From positions 186,001-250,000 of the forward strand of contig NZ_BFBR01000001.1 of NCBI RefSeq assembly GCF_003112735.1: a DNA stretch of 64,000 bases, given 5' to 3'. Origin of the DNA: Candidatus Phycosocius bacilliformis. GTDB lineage: Bacteria; Pseudomonadota; Alphaproteobacteria; Caulobacterales; Aquidulcibacteraceae. Below are positions 36,488-38,063 of this stretch, piece by piece; the stretch's first letter is position 1; each line of letters begins with the position of its first letter. Under the pieces are notes generated by a model. That model made no database searches, was not told where the DNA came from, and was given only the letters and a program-made list of their open reading frames with translations. Both the position numbers and the translations under genes were made by a program.

Positions 36488-37111
36488 ATGAACCGACGTC
36501 ATCTTCTTGCTCTTTGTGCATCCCTGTGCGTGCCAGGCATCGCGTCTGCTCAAAGCCTGTCTGGGGCGGAACGCAGCGCGGCAATTGCCAGCCTCACACG
36601 GGCGCTGAACGCCATCACCCGCCTGCAAGGCCGTTTTCAACAGACCAATCCTGACGGCACTTTGGTGAGCGGACGGTTCTGGTTGCAACGACCTGGCAAG
36701 GTGCGGTTTGAATATGACGCCCCCTCGCCCCTGCTGCTGATCTCAGACGGGTCTACGGTGAGTTTGCAGGATCGACGCCTGCGCACAACCGACCGCTATC
36801 CCTTGCGCAAGACCCCACTCTATTTTCTGCTGAAAGCCAATGTCAGCCTTGAGACCGATGTCTTGGTGACTGCCATAGCCAAGCGCAGTGGCACCACTGT
36901 GATGGCCGTACGCGACAAGGCCCGTCAGGCCGATGGCGAGCTGACAGTGGTGTTTGACGAGAAGGCAGGCCAGCTGCGCGAATGGTCGATCGCTGACCGC
37001 CAGGGTCGGATCACACGTGTTCAGTTGAGCGAAACTGCCGGGGGTGGTGCCATGGCCCCATCGCTGTTCACCACACCGGGGCCAACCGTTAAATATGATC
37101 CGCGTCGCTGA
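36488..37111 (+). CDS. lolA: Outer-membrane lipoprotein carrier protein LolA
   Basis: 207 residues from the ATG at 36488. Signal peptide (about 1-20, cut expected after IASAQ). The LolA core is clear: LQGRFQQTNPDGTLVSGRFWLQRPGKVRFEYDAPSPLLLISDG is split over residues 38-85, followed by the TPLYFLL strand. It shuttles lipoproteins across the periplasm from LolCDE to the outer membrane. The next feature downstream is a putative sRNA. Confidence 0.94.
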   Translation: MNRRHLLALCASLCVPGIASAQSLSGAERSAAIASLTRALNAITRLQGRFQQTNPDGTLVSGRFWLQRPGKVRFEYDAPSPLLLISDGSTVSLQDRRLRTTDRYPLRKTPLYFLLKANVSLETDVLVTAIAKRSGTTVMAVRDKARQADGELTVVFDEKAGQLREWSIADRQGRITRVQLSETAGGGAMAPSLFTTPGPTVKYDPRR

Positions 37112-37139
37112 CACATCTGCCATACTGACATCACGGAAT

Positions 37140-37181
37140 TGTAACAATTATGTCACATGCAAGGATTAAATACTTTTAATC
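37140..37181. promoter_or_regulatory. Two operator-like palindromes upstream of the sRNA promoter
   Basis: TGTAACA-N4-TGTCACA (37140-37157, six of seven arm positions paired) and GATTAAA-N4-TTTAATC (37164-37181, seven of seven). The second ends exactly one base before the -35 at 37182. They look like binding sites for two dimeric regulators. The proteins are not identifiable from here. Confidence 0.5.
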
Positions 37182-37210
37182 TTGATTTTCTGTTCTGATG
37201 TGTCTATCTT
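37182..37210 (+). promoter_or_regulatory. Promoter of the putative sRNA
   Basis: TTGATT (37182-37187), 17-base spacer, TATCTT (37205-37210), start expected near 37217. Confidence 0.6.
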
Positions 37211-37216
37211 GCAACT

Positions 37217-37367
37217 CATGGACAGAGGGCATGCGGATTGGCGTCGTCCCCCCGCTTGCAGATCCGGCCTTTTGTCCCGCTCCGCCGGCATTCCCCCCGG
37301 CGCAGACCCGGCGTGCCCTGCGCTGAACGTCTGAACGCCCGGCCTTCATGGTCGGGCGTTTGTCGTT
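37217..37367 (+). ncRNA. Putative trans-acting sRNA with C-rich loops
   Basis: About 150 nt between a promoter and a terminator, in a 268-base gap without a convincing gene. Predicted pairing by eye: outer stem GGGCATGC (37227-37234) with GCGTGCCC (37311-37318); inside it one hairpin GGAT/ATCC (37235-37238, 37262-37265) with a loop containing six C, and a second CGCCGG/CCGGCG (37283-37288, 37297-37302) with loop CATTCCCC. Terminator hairpin at 37334-37360. C-rich loops that can pair with Shine-Dalgarno G stretches are typical of regulatory sRNAs in this class. I do not recognise an Rfam family. A 38-codon reading frame at 37218-37334 exists but its codon usage looks random. Confidence 0.65.
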
Positions 37368-37379: not shown

Positions 37380-38063
37380 TCAGAAAGGCTTGACCGCACC
37401 AAAAAAGGCGGTGGTGGCAATCCCAATCCAATAGCAATAGGCGATCATGCGACCCCGGCCGATGGAGATTTCAAGCTGGGTCTGGGCAGCTTGATTGGGT
37501 CCAGCCGCCAGAATGCGGAATAAAGTGGTCCATTCCCGCATGATAAAGCGCAAACCAAGACCCAGGACCAACATCAGCGAATAGGTGAACATCTTGGCCG
37601 GATACCAATAGCTGCCGACCTCAATCGCCAGGGGGCCATGGCCAAGGAACGCCAAAATCGACACCCCAAACAACACAGGGATCAATACGAAGCGTACTTT
37701 CTCGTCCATCTTGGTCAAAGCGATCCCTGCATCGGTCTCACGCTTGAAGAAGGCAGCCCAGCACAGGCCCAGCCAGGACAAGGCCAAGACCCACATGATC
37801 GCCAAGCCAATGCCATCAAGAAACGGCACAAAGCCGTAGAGATGGCCCATGTGCAGCCCGAGCGGCAACAACATGATAATGCCGGTACGGGCAAGAATAT
37901 CGATGCGATAGGCGGTTTCCATGTGCCGCCGCCGCTCGTCCAGACTGAGATCGCGATTGGTAACATGGTAGGAAGTCTGGAACACACCCCACTCCCCGCC
38001 CAGCCAATAGACCATGGCCAGAATGTGTAGCCAGCGCACCACATCCACTTCATTGACAACCAT
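37380..38063 (-). CDS. Integral membrane protein, CopD/DUF2269-like
   Basis: 227 residues from the ATG at 38061-38063 (GAGGGGG upstream). About six membrane helices. The first, VVRWLHILAMVYWLGGEWGVFQ, has the W-x-H and GG-x-W pattern seen in CopD and DUF2269 membrane proteins, where histidines may bind copper or heme; this is a resemblance, not a firm assignment. It is the last gene of a minus-strand group (VOC protein, CurA-like reductase, this gene), but 112 bases separate it from the reductase. That gap holds an operator-like palindrome at 38119-38143, so it probably has its own promoter. Confidence 0.65.
   Translation of the reverse strand: MVVNEVDVVRWLHILAMVYWLGGEWGVFQTSYHVTNRDLSLDERRRHMETAYRIDILARTGIIMLLPLGLHMGHLYGFVPFLDGIGLAIMWVLALSWLGLCWAAFFKRETDAGIALTKMDEKVRFVLIPVLFGVSILAFLGHGPLAIEVGSYWYPAKMFTYSLMLVLGLGLRFIMREWTTLFRILAAGPNQAAQTQLEISIGRGRMIAYCYWIGIATTAFFGAVKPF

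Follow-up and report, generated by a model that had tools for sequence, protein, structure and literature searches.

The window, a 64,000-nt stretch of Candidatus Phycosocius bacilliformis DNA, carries a lolA gene on its forward strand (positions 36488 to 37111; match to PF03548, E = 2.9e-32), and the initial annotation proposed that a gene resembling those for small RNAs (sRNAs) lies downstream. This proposal is borne out, in that the gene upstream matches the LolA profile and is encoded on the same strand, and lolA proves to be the neighbor that anchors the RNA family described below. As judged from sequence, the region from 37182 to 37367 is very probably the gene of a small regulatory RNA that exposes two C runs. 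The predicted transcript, which resembles the RusT RNA of Caulobacter, spans nucleotides 37217 to 37367 of the forward strand, where both of its ends are predicted positions. The next gene of the window (37380 to 38063) is on the reverse strand and therefore converges on the RNA. This gene is 90.7 to 93.8% identical in the seven congeners in which it was seen, one copy being partial, and it finds no match in Pfam or NCBIfam.

The putative promoter proposed for the RNA, which consists of TTGATT (37182 to 37187) and TATCTT (37205 to 37210) on the forward strand with a 17-nt spacer, is found at these same positions by direct reading of the sequence. It agrees with the consensus at 8 of 12 letters by manual count and was therefore missed by a consensus promoter scan, which does not list it. 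In an alignment of nine sequences from the genus, the block is largely kept, wherein TATCTT is retained in eight and the −35 element is mostly TTGCTT. Farther upstream, a conserved forward-strand element (TTGTAACA..TGTCACATGCAAGG, 37139 to 37164) is related to an element of Caulobacter rusT promoters. The motif CANGCAA, whose copy in the window occupies 37156 to 37162, is present in 49 of 82 upstream regions from the family, with 48 of these copies starting between −58 and −64, as compared to a mean of 1.7 and a maximum of 8 in shuffled sequences. A near-palindrome, AATTGTAACAATT, is also seen 5′ of the promoter at 37137 to 37149 and persists with minor variation across most of the genus.

An ATG at 37218 opens a 38-codon frame on the forward strand (37218 to 37334), which raises the alternative that a small protein or leader peptide is encoded here. 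The ATG is present in all nine genus sequences, and eight of them share the beginning MDxxHxDWRRPPA. However, the congeners diverge after approximately 13 to 15 residues such that the frames of their C-terminal parts differ, and one of them has a frameshift. Among 82 loci of the family, just 33 have an ATG-initiated frame of 30 or more codons that passes through the first C-rich loop, and starts of any kind are distributed over all three frames. The frame product has no match in NCBIfam, and the stems of the RNA covary as described below. We therefore rejected the small protein reading as very improbable indeed and judge that this frame is not a conserved gene. The initial view that the region holds no convincing coding gene is thus upheld, and the frame does not account for the conservation observed at the locus.

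Predicted structure and covariation of the RNA

Folding of nucleotides 37217 to 37367 yields a structure of −75.5 kcal/mol (z = −3.57), and none of 200 shuffled sequences was equally stable. In the MFE structure, all of whose elements are on the forward strand, a closing stem called P1 (37220 to 37230 with 37267 to 37277) encloses hairpin 1 only (SL1; 37234 to 37266), which displays CCCCCC at 37248 to 37253. This module is followed by hairpin 2 (SL2; 37283 to 37302), with the loop CATTCCCC at 37289 to 37296, and by the hairpin 3 region (SL3; 37303 to 37333), whose core at 37309 to 37325 carries the loop GCCCT. The RNA is predicted to end with an intrinsic terminator (37334 to 37367) that includes an 11-pair stem (37334 to 37344 with 37350 to 37360) and a weak T-tract, TTTGTCGTTT.

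Two C-rich loops had been described for this RNA, and ensemble calculations agree, wherein the first five C residues of CCCCCC are unpaired with probabilities of 0.99 to 1.0 and CATTCCCC is unpaired at 1.0 throughout. The sixth C of the run is unpaired at 0.28. The 11-pair terminator noted earlier also appears in the MFE structure, and all 11 pairs are kept in each of the nine genus sequences; a simple terminator scan does not list this terminator, and its T-tract is weak. The closing stem of the initial annotation (37227 to 37234 with 37311 to 37318), which was thought to hold both hairpins, fared differently. It is absent from the MFE structure, and its eight pairs can all form in the window sequence alone, with three to six of eight in the eight congeners. 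This stem was rejected, and P1 was found instead.

The module around the first C run is recovered when the genus sequences are folded singly. All nine form 14 to 21 pairs around the run in a stem that closes inside the initial 75 nt, and five of the six C residues are unpaired in each of these MFE folds. SL3 retains all six of its pairs in eight of the nine sequences and four of six in the ninth. In a sequence-only alignment of the genus, the congeners appear to form 5 to 10 of the 11 P1 pairs and 2 to 6 of the 6 SL1 pairs. Because the single folds recover the stem in all nine sequences, we read these low counts as the result of misplaced gaps.

A broader view of the structure was obtained from an alignment of 82 loci matched by a covariance model, R1 (see below), with one locus per genome taken from 115 matched genomes, the rest being duplicates or not fetched. 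In this alignment, 89.4% of cells are paired, and changes on both sides of the pair are observed for 19 of 22 base pairs. Compensatory changes of the kind that a covariance search in relatives was expected to reveal are thus found, albeit in the stems as redrawn here. The covariation score is 0.491, versus 0.192 (SD 0.008) for shuffled alignments and at most 0.128 for slid pairing partners, where the alignment had been fitted to the model. All eight P1 pairs of the model show both-sided changes, and so do all six pairs in the outer helix of SL1. When 18 sequences from one family (f5) were aligned by MAFFT on sequence alone, and the structure was set by hand after the alignment had been seen, both-sided changes were found in 14 of 39 pairs, with a score of 0.237 versus 0.145. 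Weaker spots are P1, for which two counts give 85.3% and 84.1% of cells as paired, and the inner helix of SL1, which is paired in 79.3% and includes one pair that fails in 43 of the 82 sequences.

The loops, in contrast to the stems, hardly change. The six C residues of loop 1 are kept in all 82 aligned copies and the CCCC of loop 2 in 80. Neither the stems nor the C-rich loops are lost among relatives. The SL1 run is unpaired at a probability of at least 0.7 in 79 of 82 sequences. The corresponding count for SL2 is 67 of 81, as obtained with a regular expression able to pick the wrong stretch; it did so in the window (0.25), for which the value of 1.0 given above comes from a separate ensemble, and another expression for hairpin 2 missed 27 loci. 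A strict test for a terminator was passed by 70 of the 82 loci.

Distribution of the RNA family and its linkage to lolA

When 101 related genomes were searched at the DNA level with BLAST, 20 gave matches, including the genome of the window and all eight congeners. Of 11 loci found outside the genus, eight are located by lolA, and the three without LolA (L012, L014, and L017) were dropped. Among 299 genomes of the order, the covariance model R1, built from 13 sequences, then matched 107, counting that of the window, and these represent 18 of 54 genera; at the threshold used (E = 0.001), 192 of the 299 gave no match. The genome of the window has a single match at this threshold. In a sample of the class, R1 matched 8 of 289 genomes, again including its own, and the other seven belong to four other families (f8, f95, f120, and f130).

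This RNA is found at a consistent genomic address. A lolA gene lies upstream on the same strand at 36 of the 37 R1 loci examined, which include all 30 loci fetched from the order (the best-scoring ones) and six of the seven class loci, where the separation is a few hundred bases. At the seventh class locus (G423), approximately 113 kb separate the RNA from the only LolA match in its genome. By eye, this RNA keeps the downstream gene of the other class loci. A protein of about 200 residues (with a stretch like IERQPAIALVRRFA..PWFARLGD, again judged by eye) is encoded 3′ of the sRNA in several of the loci L051 to L057, including L051, where lolA is not adjacent.

Such tight linkage is what might be expected if the structure were a cis-acting element or a product of the lolA 3′ UTR, for example one that serves in termination or mRNA stability, rather than a free sRNA. 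Three observations argue against this alternative and leave it quite unlikely. The promoter block and the conserved upstream element stand between lolA and the RNA, the G423 RNA is far removed from the sole LolA match in its genome, and RusT of Caulobacter is described as a separate transcript of 118 nt (PMC11005374). We therefore continue to regard the RNA as the product of its own gene.

To extend the survey, 80 more regions downstream of lolA were drawn from the 254 class-sample genomes with a LolA match and searched with R1, which revealed one clear copy (L131, E = 8e-5) and one weak match (L069, E = 0.57). Among 30 further LolA loci, the R1 search covered L138, L156, and L161 only. Other candidates with a C-rich hairpin and a terminator were seen after lolA at L088 and L089 (family f44), L097 (f142), and L138, L156, and L161 (f17). 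The genome-wide models gave no match at the candidates from f44, f142, and f17. Genes for sRNAs of this kind may often reside after lolA among Alphaproteobacteria.

Searches of databases gave the family no existing name. There were no Rfam matches at the gathering threshold in the window or in nine loci (eight from other genera, and L009), and 10 further loci gave none at E = 0.05. Nine Rfam matches (E = 0.58 to 9.6) that scored well under the gathering threshold were discarded. The initial description of an sRNA that is undescribed and whose family is not recognized therefore holds with regard to Rfam. It does not hold with regard to Caulobacter, where RusT, an sRNA encoded after lolA, is probably a relative. 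The open-access main texts that were searched yielded no report of this RNA outside Caulobacter.

Probable relationship to Caulobacter RusT and proposed function

RusT (CCNA_R0199) of C. crescentus is an Hfq-bound RNA whose gene is flanked by lolA and xth. Of its four stem-loops, the second holds the seed and the third the Hfq site (PMC11005374). NtrX binds and represses RusT, an iron chelator or zinc induces it, and the RNA in turn represses TonB-dependent receptors, ompW, and other targets (PMC11005374). Homologues are reported in closely related Caulobacteraceae, and the available text names no wider ones (PMC11005374). We assigned rusT in four Caulobacter genomes on the basis of place and structure within the lolA-xth interval. 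In a LolA tree, Caulobacter groups with family f3 (support 100/99), which is assigned to the order of the window. We take the window to belong to the order of Caulobacter but to another family; a placement in Rhodobacterales was dropped in view of this tree and of the 38 TonB plug domains of the genome.

Several features are common to RusT and the RNA of the window. Both are encoded directly after lolA and on the same strand (4/4 Caulobacter genomes), and both have four hairpins of which the last is the terminator, as predicted here by MFE and as probed in RusT. Hairpin 2, the probable counterpart of the hairpin that holds the RusT seed, has a CCGG stem and a CCCC loop in both, although the window departs from the exact pattern given below. 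The upstream elements are related as well, wherein the Caulobacter promoters as printed carry CAGGCAA in all four cases. Other features distinguish the two RNAs. The window RNA is longer than RusT, and its hairpin 1 consists of a stem in two parts topped by a CCCCCC loop, a C run that the Caulobacter hairpin 1 lacks. The gene xth follows rusT in all four Caulobacter genomes, whereas a different gene comes next in the window; this is a detail of the locus rather than of the RNA. Frames similar to xth follow in L069, L080, and L128.

The sequence of hairpin 2 in Caulobacter is CCGGATCCTATCCCCTCCCGG, and we searched 23 chosen genomes with the pattern CCGGAN{0,7}TCCCCTCCCGG. It occurs at 16 places in 14 of these genomes, as compared to a single occurrence of the reversed pattern in all 23. 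Each of the four Caulobacter genomes has it once at rusT, and they hold one match in addition; the places away from the locus are one in G586 and one in G388. Every pattern place that was fetched (12/12) lies downstream of lolA. The exact pattern is present in two of three f2 genomes and in one of three f3 genomes; it is absent from the genome of the window, which has CCGGCATTCCCCCCGG in its stead.

A second covariance model, R2, was built from the 82 aligned loci. When used genome-wide at E = 1, R2 recovers rusT in none of the four Caulobacter genomes. In a regional search with filters switched off, which covered lolA regions totaling 45 kb, R2 scores 14.6 to 20.9 bits at rusT (E = 0.055 to 0.56). 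Over all expected places, E values range from 0.027 to 0.56, with scores of 22.8 (L069), 20.9 (L175), 18.5 (L173), 18.2 (L174), 16.2 (L218), 16.1 (L089), 15.4 (L088), and 14.6 bits (L172). Interspersed among these are unexpected matches, for example in L128 (16.7 bits) and at a second place in L069 (14.1 bits).

Because hairpin 1 differs and the genome-wide R2 search misses rusT, kinship is argued from position, hairpin 2, and the promoter. These same facts, together with the different-looking C-rich candidates after lolA in f17, f44, and f142, would also be consistent with a genuine lolA-locus sRNA that is not homologous to RusT, where C-rich hairpins arose independently at a site prone to sRNA genes. 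We consider this unlikely, given that the hairpin 2 sequence of RusT is also found in some members of f1, f2, f3, f4, f8, and f95, that the 12 fetched pattern loci are all downstream of lolA, and that the upstream element is held in common. The conservation, the covarying structure, the place after lolA, and the common hairpin 2 and upstream element are observations made on sequences. The window RNA is quite likely homologous to RusT. The fuller description that we favor, and hold to be probable, is that of an approximately 150-nt trans-acting sRNA gene after lolA, with its own promoter and terminator, whose product is presumably a divergent homologue of RusT.

The upstream element is a candidate site for a regulator. 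Two published tables place a hypomethylated GANTC at 3987164 to 3987166 and have CCNA_R0199 starting at 3987216 (PMC5172544, PMC5988900). In the Caulobacter sequence, which is from another strain, a GAATC approximately 52 bases upstream (manual count, within about a base) adjoins CAGGCAA. This arrangement, combined with the hypomethylation, would fit a protein bound there. The NtrX motif, reported as GCAn9TGC (PMC7240162), occurs in one of the 82 upstream regions, as against an average of 2.3 in shuffled sequences, and is not found upstream in the window. Published ChvI and CenR motifs and a CAA-TTG motif were likewise without enrichment in the upstream regions.

Transcription of the window RNA, Hfq binding, control by NtrX and iron, and the class of targets are suggested mostly by analogy with RusT. 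By this analogy, the RNA is most likely an envelope-stress sRNA that would act by blocking ribosome-binding sites. A signal of envelope or iron homeostasis would be read at the conserved upstream element to cause production of the RNA, which would then bind Hfq. The two C-rich loops, which are presented on covarying stems (CCCCCC on the long hairpin 1 and CCCC on hairpin 2), would pair with G-rich ribosome-binding sites and block them, and the main outcome would be reduced synthesis of outer-membrane transporters. The genome of the window has an hfq gene and 38 TonB plug domains.

The proposed pairing with Shine-Dalgarno regions is likewise suggested by analogy, and we assessed it by computing loop duplex energies at 30 TonB-receptor starts from five genomes, where the starts were guessed. 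Relative to 47 window genes, these starts show no greater loop complementarity (one-sided p = 0.46 and 0.71); relative to 16 neighboring genes, no clear excess is seen (p = 0.09 and 0.16). TonB receptors from four genus genomes (L244, L246, L247, and L248) have in common a G-rich leader, AGGGGACAAATGGAGG or a close variant, before the ATG. This leader could pair with loop 1, in a set of 30 receptors that shows no enrichment overall.

The C run of loop 1 has near-invariant flanking letters and covarying stems across seven families, a degree of constraint that exceeds what shifting mRNA targets would seem to impose. We therefore offer the proposal, rather doubtful at present, that loop 1 docks a fixed partner, which could be a protein, a second RNA, or some conserved site on the translational machinery. 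In that case RusT would be derived, having lost this module, and the ancestor would have been an ancient, two-armed regulator of the alphaproteobacterial envelope.

Other sRNAs of Alphaproteobacteria resemble the window RNA in part. GsrN of Caulobacter also has a C-rich loop, which pairs with G-rich leaders, and its predicted homologues are typically near core regulators of the general stress response, C. crescentus excepted (PMC5869019). The available text of that report does not mention lolA, and GsrN was set aside by its locus as described and not by sequence. StsR (RSs0827) of Rhodobacter sphaeroides is likewise a stress sRNA and was first seen under iron starvation, but it is 72 nt long and controlled by RpoHI/RpoHII (PMC8307010); it was set aside by its described length and not by sequence. 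SuhB of Sphingopyxis granuli is another Hfq-dependent alphaproteobacterial sRNA and, unlike the window RNA, is 61 nt long (PMC6563040).

Caulobacter RusT is thus probably the tip of a broader alphaproteobacterial family, conserved in position, that has no matching Rfam entry and that reaches well beyond the close relatives of Caulobacter. Members of this family expose a nearly invariant C-rich module that is absent from RusT, the member that has been studied. The usual place of the RNA after lolA, the gene for the outer-membrane lipoprotein carrier, fits a role in envelope homeostasis, and this position offers a simple route to further members and to their targets.
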